This document shows, piece after piece, positions 53,089 through 59,442 of a stretch of 64,000 bases of DNA. Numbering within the stretch: the first letter of the stretch is position 1; each line of letters opens with the position of its first letter. The stretch is from assembly GCF_019670005.1 (NCBI RefSeq), contig NZ_AP019783.1, positions 3,932,150 through 3,996,149 on the forward strand. Direction: 5' to 3'. The notes beneath the pieces are model-generated. The model was not told where the DNA came from. It saw only the letters and a list, made by a program, of their open reading frames with translations, and ran no database searches. A program made the translations under genes and the position numbers. Source of the stretch: Methylomagnum ishizawai (lineage in GTDB: Bacteria > Pseudomonadota > Gammaproteobacteria > Methylococcales > Methylococcaceae).

Positions 53089-53216
53089 AGGGTTTCCTGC
53101 GGTGGATGGATAAGGAACGGGAAGATACCGGATTTCGCCGACGATTGCGGCGGGATCGAGCATCGATGCTAAGATGCCGCGCCCTTTTCCTGGCCTCAAA
53201 ACAACCGGAGCCCCCC

Positions 53217-54854
53217 ATGAGCCAACGCCCCCCGAAAGCCCCGCCCAGACTGCCGGGTGCCCTGCCCTTGCTCGGACATATCCCCGATTTCGGCAAGAAT
53301 CCCCACGATTTCATGATGCGGCTCAGGGCCAAGCTGGGCGATATCGCCGAATTCCAGATGTTCCACCAGGACATGGTGCTGATGACCGGGGCCGAGGCCA
53401 GCGAGGCGTTCTACCGCGCCCCGGACGAGGTGCTGGACCAAGGCCCGGCCTATAAGCTGATGACGCCGATCTTCGGCCAGGGCGTGGTGTTCGACGCGCC
53501 CATCCCGCGCAAGAACGAGCAATTGCAAATGCTCATGCCGGCCCTGCGCGATAAGCCGATGCGGACCTATTCCGAGGTCATCGTCGGCGAGGTCGAACAA
53601 ATGACCCGCGACTGGGGCGGCTCCGGCGACTTGAACCTGTTGGAATTCACCAAGGAACTGACCATCTACACCGCCAGCCATTGTTTACTCGGCCCGGAAT
53701 TCCGCTACGAACTCAGCGCCGAATTCGCCGAAATCTACCGCGACCTGGAACACAGCATCCAGCCCATCGCCTATGTGTTCCCCAACCTGCCCTTGCCGAT
53801 CTTCCGCCGCCGCGACAAGGCGCGGGTGCGGCTACATGGCTTGGTCGCGCAGATCATGGAAAAACGCGCCCAAAGCAGCGAAAAAAGCACCAACGTGTTC
53901 CAAATGCTGATCGACGCCCATTACGAGGACGGCAGCAAGCTCAGTTCCCACGAGATCACCGGGATGCTGACCGCCGCCGTGTTCGCGGGCCACCACACCA
54001 GTTCCGGCACCGCCGCCTGGGTGTTGATCGAACTGCTGCGCCACCCCGAGGAGTTGCGCCGGGTGGTGGCGGAACTCGACGCCTTGTTCGGCGAGGACGG
54101 GCCGGTGACGTTCGAGTCCTTGCGGCAGATTCCCCGGTTGGAAAATGTCATCAAGGAAGTGCTGCGCCTGCATCCGCCCTTGATCCTGTTGATCCGCAAG
54201 GTGATGAAGGATTTCCAGGTCGGGGATTATCTGATCCCGGCCGGGAAATTCGTCTGCGCCGCGCCCGCCGTGACCCACCGGATTCCCGAGTTGTTCCCCG
54301 ACCCGGAACGCTTCGACCCCGATCGCTACACCCCGGAACGCGGCGAGGACCGCAACCTCTACGGCTGGCAGGCGTTCGGCGGCGGGCGGCATAAATGTTC
54401 GGGCAACGCCTTCGCGCTGTTCCAGTTGAAGGCGATTTTCAGCCTATTGCTGCGGCGCTATGAGTTCGAGCTGGTCAACCCGCCCGAGAGCTACCGCGAC
54501 GATTACACCAAGATGGTGGTGGAGCCGAATTCCCCGTGTTTGGTGCGCTACCGCAGGCGCAAGACCCAGGCCGAGCGGACGGCGGCGACCGCAACGGCCA
54601 CGGATGCGGCCCAAGCAAATCGGCACCGGCTCAAGGTCGTGGTCGATTGGGATTTGTGCAAGGGCCATGCGAACTGCATGACGGAAGCGCCGGAAGTATT
54701 CCAGGTCGATGATAAAGGCAAGCTGACCGTGCTGGACGAACACCCGTCGGCGGAGTTGTTGGAGAAGCTCAGGGCGGCGGAGCGGTATTGCCCGACGCGG
54801 GCGATCAAGATCGAGGGCGGGGAAGCCGAGGGTGGGCTTTGTCCGTTCCACTGA
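53217..54854 (+). CDS. cyp51: Sterol 14-alpha-demethylase CYP51 fused to [3Fe-4S]-type ferredoxin
   Basis: It removes the 14-alpha methyl group of sterols (lanosterol type) by three O2-dependent steps. The product is 545 residues. CYP51 signatures: Y-K-L-M-T-P-I-F-G-Q-G-V-V-F-D, the I-helix F-A-G-H-H-T-S-S, E-V-L-R (ExxR) and the heme loop F-G-G-G-R-H-K-C with thiolate C394. An Ala/Thr-rich linker (about 455-478) leads to a ferredoxin domain with C-K-G-H-A-N-C and a final Y-C-P-T-R-A-I. A His replaces the second cluster cysteine, so a 3Fe-4S cluster is expected. The fusion is known from Methylococcus capsulatus. No hopanoid or sterol cyclase genes are in the window. Confidence 0.95.
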   Translation: MSQRPPKAPPRLPGALPLLGHIPDFGKNPHDFMMRLRAKLGDIAEFQMFHQDMVLMTGAEASEAFYRAPDEVLDQGPAYKLMTPIFGQGVVFDAPIPRKNEQLQMLMPALRDKPMRTYSEVIVGEVEQMTRDWGGSGDLNLLEFTKELTIYTASHCLLGPEFRYELSAEFAEIYRDLEHSIQPIAYVFPNLPLPIFRRRDKARVRLHGLVAQIMEKRAQSSEKSTNVFQMLIDAHYEDGSKLSSHEITGMLTAAVFAGHHTSSGTAAWVLIELLRHPEELRRVVAELDALFGEDGPVTFESLRQIPRLENVIKEVLRLHPPLILLIRKVMKDFQVGDYLIPAGKFVCAAPAVTHRIPELFPDPERFDPDRYTPERGEDRNLYGWQAFGGGRHKCSGNAFALFQLKAIFSLLLRRYEFELVNPPESYRDDYTKMVVEPNSPCLVRYRRRKTQAERTAATATATDAAQANRHRLKVVVDWDLCKGHANCMTEAPEVFQVDDKGKLTVLDEHPSAELLEKLRAAERYCPTRAIKIEGGEAEGGLCPFH

Positions 54855-54986: not shown

Positions 54987-55790
54987 ATGCCATGCTTTCT
55001 CATATTTATACTATTCTTCTTTAGCGTAAGCTACTGCCACGCAATACCTGACGATAAAATATGCAAAGAACCATCAATAGTCGCACTTCAATGGCACAGC
55101 CCCTATAGAAACTGCATTCCTCTGAAGTTAATATATCGAGCCAAAGGAATTGATGAAACAGTTGATGCCGCCCAAATAATAACCAAAAAAGGAAATAAAT
55201 GGCTATACCATATATTCATCGTAGACACCAAGGGCAATATTTTAAAGTTCAACTCAGATATCATCCTTGAGCGGCCCTCGTCAGGATTGAGTAATTTGCT
55301 AAACGAACAACTAAAAATAGGAGATGGCCCTGATCTCCTTTACGACCTTGTACTTGAGAATAATGGGATACGCCTTTGCAAAATAGCAGAAATGAAATAT
55401 CCATTAATCGGGGAACTTCGTATATGCGAGGGCGACAAAGAGTATCAAGGCCAAACCGGGTTTAGTCCTGGAATATTAAAACCGGAAGAAGCCAAAGCCA
55501 GAGTCTGTGATATAGTAGCCAAGGCATCAAACCAAGAGTGTACTTTTAATGAAATCGCGGTTTTTAAAGAACGCTTTTGGATCGAGAATGGAGAATTGTT
55601 CTATATTTTTAAAGTAAGGCAACATGTCCACCGCTGTCCAGGAACCAGCGATTCAAAAATCGTCGCTCCGCCCGTAGATATTGACATACTTGAATATCAT
55701 GTGGATGCTCAGAACTGGAAAATTTCGCTTGCCCCAAACGAGTTAAACCATGTTTTCGTAAAAAGTTGTAACCGCACGAAAAAACCATAA
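54987..55790 (+). CDS. AT-rich secreted protein of unknown function
   Basis: The product has 267 residues with a signal peptide (C-F-L-I-F-I-L-F-F-F-S-V-S-Y-C-H-A). About eight cysteines remain in the mature part, suggesting disulfides. GC content is near 40 %, far below the neighbouring genes, and codons ending in A/T dominate, which points to recent acquisition. GAGGA precedes the ATG by 7 nt and a TATAAT box lies upstream, so it is probably expressed from its own promoter. No family or domain is recognised, and no mobile-element gene is adjacent. Confidence 0.7.
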   Translation: MPCFLIFILFFFSVSYCHAIPDDKICKEPSIVALQWHSPYRNCIPLKLIYRAKGIDETVDAAQIITKKGNKWLYHIFIVDTKGNILKFNSDIILERPSSGLSNLLNEQLKIGDGPDLLYDLVLENNGIRLCKIAEMKYPLIGELRICEGDKEYQGQTGFSPGILKPEEAKARVCDIVAKASNQECTFNEIAVFKERFWIENGELFYIFKVRQHVHRCPGTSDSKIVAPPVDIDILEYHVDAQNWKISLAPNELNHVFVKSCNRTKKP

Positions 55791-55872
55791 GGCTGCAGGA
55801 TGCGTCGGGCCTGAAAACAGCCATCTTCACAATACGCCACATCCCGCAAACCCCTCTGGCGCAACCCCAAAC

Positions 55873-57123
55873 TCACCGCCCCCAAGCATTCACCGTCCGC
55901 CACCAGCGCTGCCCCAATTCCATCAGCGGCTTGCGTTGCTTCTCCAGGAAGGAGGCGAACAACAGGATGCCGATACCCAGGCCGGTCATGGTCAGCCAAG
56001 GACTGGCTTCATAAAGCTGCACCGTGAACCGGGCGTAGAAAATCGCCCCCGCCAGATACCCCACGATCCCCGCGAACAACACCCAACGCTGCCGATAAGC
56101 GATCCCGGCATAGACCAGGGCCGTGCCCACGGCCAGGAACAACATGGCGGCGGCATGGTCGCGGCGGACCGCCAAGCACAGGAAGCAACCGAGCAACGCG
56201 AGCAAAGTGCCGAGACCGCGCAAGGCCGGACCTTGGCGCAGGGATTTCTGCCCCAGCGCGAACAACAGCGCCGCGCCACCCAAGGCATGGGCGGTCCAGC
56301 CGCCGAACCCGCCCACCCCGACCGGCAGCGCCAACAGCAGGCCATTCAAGGCCAGGAAAGCGGCCAAAGCGCCCATGGGTTCCGCCCAGCCACCCAGCAA
56401 ACCGGCCCTGGCGGCATCCACGAACAACAGCACCGCCAGGATCGTCAACAGCGCCGCCGTGGTGATCCAGGACCAGGGCAGGAAAGCGCTACGCCCCACC
56501 AGGATGACCAGCGGCAAATGCGCCAAGGCCAGCGCGGCCACGCCCTCGCCCGCCTGCATCAAGGCGTCCTGCCGCTGCCGCGACCAACCCAGCCGCAGCA
56601 AGCCGAACAGCCCCAGGCACAGCGCCGCCACGACCTCCGGCTCGCGGCTCGGGATCAAGAACAAAGCGCAGCCCAGGAACAATTCCGTCAACAAGCTGGC
56701 CCGGCGCGGCTTGGCCAGGATGGAAAACGCCAGATAGGCCACGGGCAGGGCGACCCCGAGGCTCAGGGCCAAATCGCCCAACAGCAGCGCCGACCCGGCC
56801 AGTTCTGCGGGCGGCGCATAGAACAAGGCGCCCAGTTGGGTGAACTGCACCGGCACCAAGGCCGCGGCCAGGGCGAAGAACAGCCGCGCCCCCTTGTGGT
56901 CGCGCCAGAGATAGCCGCAGACCAGCCCGCACAAGGTCAGCAACATCGAGAAACCGGGCATGATCCAGTAGCGGTAATTGGGCGTGAGGCCGTTCAAGCC
57001 CTGCACCAGGAAATCGGCCATCGCCAATAGCAGGATGGTGGTGCCCAGCAGGCGCAGGTAAAAGCCGGGCCGGTAGTTTGGGGATTCCCGGCGGTCCTGG
57101 GATTCGATGTCGTAAGATTTCAT
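55873..57123 (-). CDS. Polytopic membrane protein paired with a PspA-like protein
   Basis: The product has 416 residues with about twelve hydrophobic segments, a short cytoplasmic N terminus (M-K-S-Y-D-I-E-S-Q-D-R-R-E-S) and a basic C-terminal tail (E-K-Q-R-K-P-L-M-E-L-G-Q-R-W-W-R). It begins 6 nt after the PspA-like gene stop and is thus the second gene of that operon. It resembles large predicted membrane proteins of the DUF4401/DUF2157 kind in layout, but the family is not certain. A membrane-stress partner or anchor for the PspA-like protein is a plausible role (inference). Confidence 0.7.
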   Translation of the reverse strand: MKSYDIESQDRRESPNYRPGFYLRLLGTTILLLAMADFLVQGLNGLTPNYRYWIMPGFSMLLTLCGLVCGYLWRDHKGARLFFALAAALVPVQFTQLGALFYAPPAELAGSALLLGDLALSLGVALPVAYLAFSILAKPRRASLLTELFLGCALFLIPSREPEVVAALCLGLFGLLRLGWSRQRQDALMQAGEGVAALALAHLPLVILVGRSAFLPWSWITTAALLTILAVLLFVDAARAGLLGGWAEPMGALAAFLALNGLLLALPVGVGGFGGWTAHALGGAALLFALGQKSLRQGPALRGLGTLLALLGCFLCLAVRRDHAAAMLFLAVGTALVYAGIAYRQRWVLFAGIVGYLAGAIFYARFTVQLYEASPWLTMTGLGIGILLFASFLEKQRKPLMELGQRWWRTVNAWGR

Positions 57124-57129
57124 GGCGGA

Positions 57130-57795
57130 TTACTCCCCGGTTTCGGTGTTGGATTGGGAGGGATTGGAGGCGGCGACCAGGCCGGCCAAACGGCGGCGCA
57201 AACTCTCGGCCTGTTCGGTGCGCTCGAATTCGGCGGCGAGATCGTCGTAGCCGGTGCCCGCGGCCAGGTCCGGCTCCACCGCGCCCAGCCGTATTTCCCA
57301 GCGGTCGAACACGGCATCGACCGCCTCCGTGCCGCCCAGCGGGTCGGACAACTGGGCATATTCCAGGTGGAACTGGCGCGAACTCAGCAAGGTCCGCCGC
57401 CGCTTGGCTTCTTCCAGCTTGGTGGTCTGGCGGTCCAGTTCGGCGCGGATTTTCTGGCGCAGCGCCTGGGTTTCGCGCAGGGAGACGGCCAGTTGTCCGG
57501 CCTCGCGCTCCACGGCTTCCAGCCGCCGCACGCATTCCAGCGCCCGCGTTTCCTCGGCGGCGACCCGCACCGCCCGTTCGGCCCAAAGCGCGGCGTCCTT
57601 GCGCAGGGCGGCGTGGCGTTCGTCCAGGGTTTTCAGTTCGCGGTCGAGGCGGCCCAGCCGCACGCGGGTGGTGGCGGCCAGCTTTTCCAATTCCTGGATG
57701 GCGGCGTCGGCCACGGCTTCGTGGTTCTCGAAATCGCCGGCCACTTCGTTGAGTTGCGCCTTGACACTGACGAAGATGCGTCTGAAGGGGTTCAT
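57130..57795 (-). CDS. PspA/IM30-like coiled-coil protein
   Basis: The product is 221 residues from the ATG at 57795. The start M-N-P-F-R-R-I-F-V-S-V-K-A-Q-L-N fits the amphipathic first helix of PspA/Vipp1 proteins. Residues about 25-145 form long heptad-rich helices (A-A-I-Q-E-L-E-K-L-A-A-T-T-R-V-R-L; L-R-E-T-Q-A-L-R-Q-K-I-R-A-E-L). ESCRT-III-like PspA proteins form rods and support damaged membranes. A -24/-12 promoter lies about 38-53 nt upstream, and a sigma-54 activator is encoded divergently, the logic of the Psp response. A TTG start at 57822 is unlikely, as it falls at the expected transcription start. Confidence 0.72.
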   Translation of the reverse strand: MNPFRRIFVSVKAQLNEVAGDFENHEAVADAAIQELEKLAATTRVRLGRLDRELKTLDERHAALRKDAALWAERAVRVAAEETRALECVRRLEAVEREAGQLAVSLRETQALRQKIRAELDRQTTKLEEAKRRRTLLSSRQFHLEYAQLSDPLGGTEAVDAVFDRWEIRLGAVEPDLAAGTGYDDLAAEFERTEQAESLRRRLAGLVAASNPSQSNTETGE

Positions 57796-57831
57796 GGGGG
57801 ATGCCTCGGGTGATTGTGACAAGCCTATTAA

Positions 57832-57848
57832 GGCAGTCGGCGTGCCAG
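57832..57848 (-). promoter_or_regulatory. Sigma-54 (-24/-12) promoter of the PspA-like operon
   Basis: On the minus strand the sequence is CTGGCACGCCGACTGCC. It matches YTGGCACG at -24 exactly, and CTGC replaces TTGC at -12 (one mismatch) with correct spacing. The start of transcription would fall near 57822, giving a leader of about 27 nt. A dyad ATCAAG-AG-CTTGAT at 57877-57890 could be the activator's upstream binding site. Confidence 0.7.
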
Positions 57849-57969
57849 CCCGATGCGCGGCGATTGACCCTTACCAATCAAGAGCTTGATGAACCCATAG
57901 GCTCGTCGGCTTGGCCTGGACCGACATTTTCCGCACAATGCCCCTAGCATAAAAAGCACGGGGGTTTTC

Positions 57970-59442
57970 ATGGCCGGATTACGTTTGAGCGAAGCGCAGC
58001 GCGGATTTTTCGGTTGGGTGGCGGAGGCGGTGTTCGCCAATCCCTTCGGGCCGGAGCGGGCCGCGCTGGACCGCCGCATCGCCGGGATCGACCCCCGCGC
58101 CCCGGCGGACCCGGCCCGGACCTTGGAACTCGCCATCGAGCAAGTGGAGCGCCGGGTGCGCGAACTCGACCCCGATGGCCGCTTGCGCCCGGACCGCTAC
58201 CCGGCGGAAGACGCCCGCCTCCTGCAATGGGTGGGTTTGTTCCGCATCTACCACGCCTTCCGCGACGAGTTCGGCCAGTTCATCGAACGCCAAGCCCAGA
58301 GCGCGGAACCCCTGGCCCCGCCCTTCGCCGACGCGCTGTGGGCGGAACTGGCCGGCCTGGGCCTGGACGCCGAAGCCCGCGCCCGCTACCTGGGCGTGTT
58401 CTACCAAGTACGGCGCGGCTTCCATTGCATCGAGCGCGAAATCGTCGGCCTGTGCCCCGCCGTGGTGGAACTCAGGATGCGGCTGTGGAACGCCATCTTC
58501 ACCTTCCGCCCGGATTGGTATCTGCGCTGCCTGGTGGGGCGGATGGAGGATTTTTCCACCCTGCTGCTGGGCGAGACCGGCACCGGCAAGACCGCCGCCG
58601 CCCGCGCCATCGGCTATTCCGGCTTCATCCCCTACGATCCCAAGACCCGGCGTTTCAAGGAGAGCTATACCCGCGCCTTCGTCGGCATCAACCTGGCGCA
58701 ATTCCCGCCCGGCGTCATCGAATCGGAGTTGTTCGGCCATCGCAAGGGCGCGTTCAGCGGGGCCATCGACCACCACCAGGGCGTGCTGGCCCGGTGCAGC
58801 GCCCACGGCGCGGTCTTGATGGACGAGATCGGCGATGTGGAACCGCTGATCCAATTGAAACTGCTGACGGTGCTGCAAGAACGCCGGTTCACCCCGGTGG
58901 GTGGACGCGAGCCACAGCAATTCAATGGCCGGGTCATCGCCGCCACCCACCGCGACCTGGGCCGATTGCGGGCGGAGGGGCGGTTCCGCGACGATTTCTT
59001 CTACCGGCTGTGTTCCGATGTGATCGCGCTGCCGCCGCTGCGCCAGCGCATCGCCGAAAACCCGGCGGAATTGCGGCTGATGGTGGCGGCGATCCTGGTG
59101 CGGACCTTCGGTCCCGACGGACTGGCCTTGGTGGACGGGGTGGAGGAACGCACCCGCGCCTCGGTGCCCGCCGACTATCCCTGGCCGGGCAATGTGCGGG
59201 AACTGGAGCAATGCGTGCGGCGTATCTGCCTGACCGGGCGCTACGAGGCCGATGGGCGGGCCGCGCCGGATGGTTTCCTGCGGCGGGTGGCGGAAGGCGG
59301 GCTGACCGCCGACGAGTTGCTGGCGGGGTATCTGGCGCGCTTGTACGGGCGGTGCCGGACCTATGAGGAAGTGGCGCGGCGCTCGGGGCTGGACCGGCGG
59401 ACGGTGAAGCGCTATATCGGGATGGGGGAACCGGAGGCGTAA
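57970..59442 (+). CDS. Sigma-54-dependent transcriptional activator (PspF-like output, novel N-terminal domain)
   Basis: The product has 490 residues. Residues 1-190 are helical, with no REC, GAF, PAS or CARF motif I can identify. The AAA+ domain has Walker A G-E-T-G-T-G-K-T (201-208), E-S-E-L-F-G-H and the sigma-54 contact loop G-A-F-S-G-A in place of G-A-F-T-G-A. V-L-M-D-E-I-G-D (Walker B) and D-D-F-F-Y-R-L follow. The Fis-type HTH at the end is Y-E-E-V-A-R-R-S-G-L-D-R-R-T-V-K-R-Y-I-G. It is divergent from the PspA-like operon, which carries a -24/-12 promoter, so it most likely activates that operon. Confidence 0.88.
   Translation: MAGLRLSEAQRGFFGWVAEAVFANPFGPERAALDRRIAGIDPRAPADPARTLELAIEQVERRVRELDPDGRLRPDRYPAEDARLLQWVGLFRIYHAFRDEFGQFIERQAQSAEPLAPPFADALWAELAGLGLDAEARARYLGVFYQVRRGFHCIEREIVGLCPAVVELRMRLWNAIFTFRPDWYLRCLVGRMEDFSTLLLGETGTGKTAAARAIGYSGFIPYDPKTRRFKESYTRAFVGINLAQFPPGVIESELFGHRKGAFSGAIDHHQGVLARCSAHGAVLMDEIGDVEPLIQLKLLTVLQERRFTPVGGREPQQFNGRVIAATHRDLGRLRAEGRFRDDFFYRLCSDVIALPPLRQRIAENPAELRLMVAAILVRTFGPDGLALVDGVEERTRASVPADYPWPGNVRELEQCVRRICLTGRYEADGRAAPDGFLRRVAEGGLTADELLAGYLARLYGRCRTYEEVARRSGLDRRTVKRYIGMGEPEA

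Follow-up and report, generated by a model that had tools for sequence, protein, structure and literature searches.

A PspA-like gene, a polytopic membrane-protein gene and a divergent sigma-54 activator in Methylomagnum ishizawai: a probable variant of the Psp system

In the enterobacterial Psp response, PspB and PspC are the membrane sensors, and to our knowledge it is mostly open how PspA proteins without these two partners learn of membrane damage. The question is raised by a locus of three genes at positions 55873-59442 of a 64,000-nucleotide stretch of the Methylomagnum ishizawai genome (C1:3932150-3996149; hereafter the window, to which positions given without a contig prefix refer). 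A pspA-like gene and a gene for a polytopic membrane protein lie there on the minus strand, and a gene for a sigma-54 activator diverges from them on the plus strand. We consider it rather probable that this is a Psp variant in which sigma-54 induction runs through a cis-acting N-terminal domain (N-domain) of the activator, and in which the membrane partner replaces PspB/PspC. The regulation is well supported by comparison, while the signal and the sensor proposed below are putative. The features of the locus are the following (aa, amino acids; nt, nucleotides).

55873-57123, minus strand: gene for the polytopic membrane protein, 416 aa, second in the operon, about 13 long helices predicted
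57130-57795, minus strand: pspA-like gene of the divergent PspA/IM30 (Vipp1) family, first in the operon, ATG start at 57795
57832-57847, minus strand: sigma-54 type -24/-12 element TGGCACGCCGACTGCC (TGG-N10-GC), 36 nt ahead of the pspA-like ATG
57918-57938, minus strand: tentative enhancer block TTGTGCGGAAAATGTCGGTCC, matching the consensus of the family weakly
57970-59442, plus strand: activator gene, 490 aa, as called from its open reading frame
57970-58545, plus strand: N-domain of the activator, residues 1-192, predicted all-helical, no recognised family
58546-59250, plus strand: AAA+ sigma-54 interaction domain and lid, residues ~193-427, with Walker A motif GETGTGK, GAFSGA loop and an insertion after Walker A relative to PspF
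59320-59442, plus strand: presumed helix-turn-helix C-terminal segment, with conserved LDRRTVK motif and weak helix-turn-helix matches (best E 0.064)

The linked genes and their promoter

The initial annotation had described the PspA-like and membrane-protein genes as neighbours with an activator diverging from them, and this is what the window holds: 6 nt separate the pspA-like stop from the membrane-protein gene, and 174 nt, counted from the ATG at 57795, lie between the pspA-like gene and the activator. The start of the pspA-like gene had to be moved. A mechanical listing of open reading frames put it at 57130-57822(-) with a TTG start; we replaced this by the ATG at 57795 because the Met encoded there is invariant in all 29 aligned PspA-like sequences, including that of the window.

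In regard to the linkage of the three genes, for which a neighbourhood survey had been proposed at the outset, 201 genomes of the order Methylococcales were searched with profiles. The N-domain was matched in 26 genomes, the membrane protein in 26 and the PspA-like protein in 28, and the same 26 genomes have all three genes, adjacent on one contig, with the exception of G063, in which the membrane-protein gene runs off the contig, with the rest on another. The activator sequence of genome G059 of this order is the same as that of the Methylovulum miyakonense locus L067, and the unit also occurs in Methylobacter marinus and Methylovulum (loci L066, L051 and L067). The idea that homologues of the activator might never stand beside PspA-like genes thus did not hold, and the three-gene linkage is established by comparison. 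The two additional PspA-like matches (G117, G123) are weak, with E values of ~1e-17 versus 7e-55 or better elsewhere, and stop codons were flagged inside the activator match of G175 and inside the PspA-like matches of G098, G080 and G106. Within the families of the order the unit is distributed patchily, which suggests that its genes are acquired or lost together.

By its family profile, the coiled-coil protein that had been called PspA/IM30-like is a divergent, near full-length member of the PspA/IM30 (Vipp1) family, the bacterial ESCRT-III proteins. The profile of 29 sequences, compared with Vipp1/PspA structures, aligned at positions 1-212 of 220 to Vipp1 positions 1-216 (E 3.6e-16), so that the likeness extends over nearly the whole length, and 28 of the 29 members match Pfam PF04012 at E<=1e-3. 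The protein of the window shows 20% identity to E. coli PspA (four-sequence alignment) and when taken singly reaches PF04012 below the cut-off (E 2.1e-6, 27.9 bits; cut-off 33.9). Elsewhere in the same genome, at C1:3595801-3596445, another weak match to the PspA profile was seen, also under the cut-off (E 1.7e-6), where an open reading frame of 290 aa lies.

The absence of PspB and PspC, claimed initially, stands for the locus, which thus does not have the PspB/PspC genes of a classical pspABC operon, and for PspB it extends to the whole genome (no match at E<=0.001). For PspC it has to be narrowed, as a single PspC-domain protein of 346 aa is encoded at C1:1279715, ~2.7 Mb from the window.

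The membrane protein had been described with 12 segments, which is approximately right, its AF2 model (pLDDT 84.5) showing ~13 long helices. Identity to 25 aligned relatives is 24-34%, with 28 invariant columns in the alignment of 26 sequences. No convincing Pfam family was found among these 26 members; DUF2157 (LiaI-LiaF-TM / DUF2157) was matched by one of them, weakly (E 0.0089), and by the window protein not at all. The structure search that had been suggested for this protein was run and brought no clear kin: Foldseek returned no structure at E<=0.001, and the best VIA-align match, a designed helical repeat with Z 11.2, was not accepted as kinship.

The predicted promoter of the operon, reported initially as a -24/-12 element with one mismatch, was found again, TGGCACGCCGACTGCC departing at one position from TGGCAC-N5-TTGC. 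Such a site alone is not beyond chance, since TGGCAC-N6-TGC occurs once in the window with 0.79 occurrences expected. What argues for it is its position, which is established by comparison: in 26 of 31 distinct PspA-linked loci a TGG-N10-GC element ends 30-55 nt before the pspA-like start, and 1000 shuffles gave 0.30 such loci on average and never more than 4 (the count leaves out the duplicate loci L002, L007, L010, L011 and L012, and keeps their twins). Furthermore, the genome carries rpoN, and a search of 55700-58100 for sigma-70-type promoters gave none. Near the activator start, a block of approximately TGTATnCATAAAATGTACAT scores above shuffled sequence (p<=0.01) in 12 of the 26 loci aligned, the consensus being drawn from the same alignment; its counterpart at 57918-57938 is tentatively considered an upstream activating (enhancer) site for the activator.

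The activator and its N-terminal domain

The core of the activator has the marks of a bacterial enhancer-binding protein, an AAA+ domain with Walker A motif and GAFTGA loop, in the form of PF00158 (residues 194-348, E 2.1e-40), GETGTGK and the variant GAFSGA. This AAA+ part is nearest to RtcR-type activators, which gave the best NCBIfam and PADLOC matches, the NCBIfam score being 177 with a cut-off of 650. The C-terminal segment is presumed to bind DNA. A defence system was considered and rejected, as PADLOC gave only weak coiled-coil and RtcR-type AAA+ matches.

Ahead of the AAA+ domain lie the ~190 residues which the initial annotation had found to be unlike PspF, a claim borne out by our comparison, since they are conserved in 79 sequences, whatever the neighbouring target gene, and match no recognised family, while PspF has no N-terminal regulatory domain. 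The underlying alignment left out L090 and L099, which are short, and three rows with more than 92% identity. Pfam found nothing on residues 1-190 of the window activator and no convincing match for the N-domain across the family. The predicted structure contains nine helices and zero strands, with a mean pLDDT of 90.6. The structure search that had been proposed for these residues found no solved relative: Foldseek gave nothing in the PDB at E<=0.001, and its best match, a farnesoid X receptor at E 0.15 and rmsd 19, is not meaningful, while the best VIA-align match (Z 5.8 over 84 residues) is within the range of a common helical arrangement. CARF, GAF and PAS domains were not recognised in the listed VIA-align matches, a listing that excludes none of them. 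The N-terminal alpha/beta CARF domain of RtcR is nevertheless not what we see here, because the N-domain is predicted all-helical; family scans gave no CARF match either. Two candidate relatives closer at hand, the C-terminal part of a Cro/CI-type regulator described below and the PspA-like protein, were rejected after profile comparison (probability 2.6% and 0.4%, respectively).

Since the N-domain is conserved regardless of the target and its fold is confidently predicted, a cis-regulatory role would be expected for it. It is unlikely to be a sensor specific for PspA, because the same N-domain is present in 53 activators without PspA beside them. Initially, sensing had been suspected either in the activator or in the membrane protein; the N-domain would be the likelier part of the two to hold the switch on the activator, and the membrane protein the likelier one to serve as anchor or sensor at the membrane.

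The pair outside the order and the wider activator family

In a wider sample of 369 genomes of the class, the membrane-protein profile matched 17 genomes, 16 of them outside the order. The PspA-like gene directly precedes the membrane-protein gene in all 16 of these outside loci, the two genes overlapping or separated by no more than some tens of nt, and because the pair is conserved in each of them, the two proteins belong together. Eight loci have a divergent Cro/CI-type regulator in place of the activator, and three of these eight run on into a gene for an Aas-like acyltransferase/AMP-binding protein. Two others (L137, L140) have an N-domain activator, located downstream and co-directional. 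Together with L037, likewise from outside the order, they are loci in which activator and pair run in the same direction, so the link between activator and pair survives another gene order. The N-domain profile matched six of the 369 genomes, three with the pair (G000, G236, G326) and three without it (G301, G516, G427). Sigma-54-type sites at the expected distance beat shuffles in none of the 16 outside loci, an outcome that is indicative, since the pspA starts there are approximate. As most outside pairs are without the N-domain activator, the pspA-membrane pair looks like the core of a wider unit with exchangeable regulators. The membrane protein adjoins PspA in every examined locus, although the regulators there are of two or more unrelated kinds, and is in this respect a concrete candidate for the missing sensor role.

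Some further neighbours were recorded. Aas-like acyltransferase/AMP-binding genes adjoin the pair in L138 (7942-11294), L139 and L141, with MFS-type genes in L138 and L141, and the same Aas-like gene type also lies near N-domain activators in L080, L087, L101, L107, L109, L113 and L114.

The activator family itself is broader than its PspA-linked members, which number 31 among 84 distinct activators. The classes of neighbours given here describe the best 80 of 387 relatives; some of the 53 loci without PspA end at a contig edge, among them L042 and L062, which lack any upstream gene. Genes divergent from the activator are PKS/PUFA-synthase-like in 12 of the 53. A VIT/VWA protein was found near 11, seven of them with a rhombosortase relative and an eighth (L101) with one recognised by TIGR03902, and an Aas-like gene near seven, three of which are also VIT loci. 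Fatty acid desaturase, TbpB/Slam, ferredoxin-type proteins, MoeA and others are rare neighbours, and many of the neighbouring genes are not classifiable, co-directional or at contig ends. About half of the 53 loci therefore have lipid or surface-protein genes, and the remainder does not speak for that theme. Of 52 loci open to the test, 18 have sites of the -24/-12 type that point away from the activator and score above shuffles (p<=0.02); for sites pointing toward it, the number is one of 52. In the VIT/VWA loci L068, L069, L100, L101 and L111, as well as in L074, L080 and L087, sigma-54-type sites directed toward the divergent gene were seen at a nearly constant distance of 122-125 nt, measured from the N-domain activator start.

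Related to this, a broader reading can be put forward, which we hold tentatively and think somewhat less likely than its opposite. The helical N-domain would define a family of sigma-54 activators, spread across phyla, whose members respond to a single membrane or lipid state and call up lineage-specific remedies, such as PspA with its partner, Aas-like lysophospholipid recycling, PUFA-type synthesis or sorted surface proteins, and the pspA-membrane pair would rank as a second core type among Psp systems, with an exchangeable regulator. If activators of membrane-lipid and surface genes do share one helical regulatory domain, the membrane state that is read becomes directly testable. A theme of exterior and lipid genes under sigma-54 is not new, because the text of PMC3162934 already ties sigma-54 in general to genes of the bacterial exterior, lipids included.

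Known systems and rival explanations

With E. coli pspF-pspABCDE, whose psp promoter is described as sigma-54 dependent in the text of PMC9239133, the locus shares a PspA-family first gene, a divergent sigma-54 activator and a sigma-54 promoter. It differs from it in the lack of a genomic PspB match and of PspC in the operon, in the large polytopic protein after pspA, and in an activator which, unlike PspF, begins with an N-domain of ~190 residues and contains additional residues, an insertion, in the region of the PspA-docking loop. Since neither PspB/PspC in the operon nor an activator free of an N-domain is found, we file the locus as a Psp variant and not as psp/PspF itself. RtcR and the CARF-AAA-HTH activators resemble the activator in the AAA+ part only; here the N-domain is all-helical, and the divergent genes are those of a PspA-like and a membrane protein instead of rtcBA. 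NtrC-like activators of Gammaproteobacteria that have ACT/PAS domains and lie beside psp genes, as reported in the text of Ravi et al. 2024 (PMC11237479), are likewise PspA-linked sigma-54 activators with an added N-terminal domain, but the N-domain of our activator matches no ACT or PAS family. DO-GTPase was not found among five window genes scanned. From the texts of PMC11237479 and PMC9239133, PspA systems are known in kind that have other membrane partners and other regulators; neither the pspA-membrane pair nor the N-domain activator is described in the passages of these two surveys that were consulted.

In the variant that we favour, the helical N-domain would hold the activator off or tune its activity until a membrane- or lipid-related signal lets the activator assemble and bind a site near its own start. 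It would then open the sigma-54 polymerase at the -24/-12 promoter from which the divergent operon is read, so that the PspA/Vipp1-like protein and its polytopic partner are induced together. The former would act as effector at the inner membrane, and the latter, in the structural place of PspB/PspC, could anchor PspA or provide input on the state of the membrane. PspA would probably not be the sole anti-activator, unlike in the case of PspF. A switch in cis is argued from the presence of the N-domain in family members without adjacent PspA.

Several observations weigh against this interpretation. No PspA gene is adjacent in the available stretch at 53 of the 84 distinct activator loci, a few of which are cut by contig ends, and the activator family is not specific for PspA; the variant envelope-stress system proposed initially stands as far as PspA, the absence of PspB/PspC from the operon, the linked genes and the conserved promoter are concerned, and falls short in the specificity of its activator family. 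The PspA-linked loci are not independent, since 30 of the 31 fall in one clade, grouped with L042 and L060 (SH-aLRT 98; tree of 83 rows in a quicker mode, with L099 out), while L037, from Thiodiazotropha, stands elsewhere, and the link to PspA therefore arose or survived more than once. Five of the 31 loci are without a strict -24/-12 element: at the usual place L059 and L037 have GT for GC and L009 has GA, L008 has a site at a distance of 196 nt, and the frame detected in L045 begins within the gene, 195 nt after a site. The enhancer block of the window is weak (10 mismatches in 23 positions, p 0.085), and the genome has a single copy of it when up to two mismatches are allowed, the same number as for a backward-pattern control. 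The loop of the activator reads GAFSGA (58747-58764, plus strand) in two of 84 activators, those of the window and of a sister species, and has T in the other 82. Aromatic residues in the family at the positions of PspF L52 and W56 may, finally, leave room for direct control by PspA.

The last point belongs to an alternative with PspF-like logic, in which the PspA-like protein restrains the AAA+ domain as anti-activator until, upon stress, it is released by the membrane protein, and the N-domain serves for assembly or localisation only. The divergent layout is that of pspF-pspA in E. coli, and Y51, L52 and W56 of PspF form the docking patch for PspA according to the text of PMC3791423. In a MAFFT alignment with PspF, the window activator has R for Y51, F for L52 and Y for W56, although the loop insertion makes the alignment locally uncertain. 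The aromatics are shared by the whole family, the L52 position being F or Y in 84 of 84 activators and the W56 position in 82 of 84, the 53 without adjacent PspA included, and E. coli RtcR also has F at the latter; because of this they speak neither for nor against docking of PspA. At the Y51 position the family has R, C or other residues, and Y is absent among the five commonest. The patch is therefore not clearly kept, PspF itself is without an N-terminal domain, and we regard this alternative as unlikely. Less probable again, in our estimate, is that the activator governs lipid or envelope composition in general and has captured the PspA pair locally as a target, with no special tie to the signal of the activator. 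The lipid- and surface-related neighbours listed above, PKS/PUFA-synthase-like, VIT/VWA, Aas-like, desaturase and TbpB/Slam genes, would suit this reading, but it does not sit well with co-occurrence in 26 of 26 genomes of the order, nor with an association that recurs under another gene order in L037, L137 and L140. As for chance neighbours with a spurious -24/-12 element and no regulation, a bare consensus is expected nearly once per window; the kept position of the element and the strict co-occurrence of the three genes render this explanation very improbable indeed.

Outside the locus, the table of open reading frames holds a cytochrome P450-looking frame with a C-terminal ferredoxin-like segment at 53106-54854(+), which we take to resemble the CYP51-ferredoxin fusion of Methylococcus. 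The source of the locus is probably a methane-oxidising bacterium.

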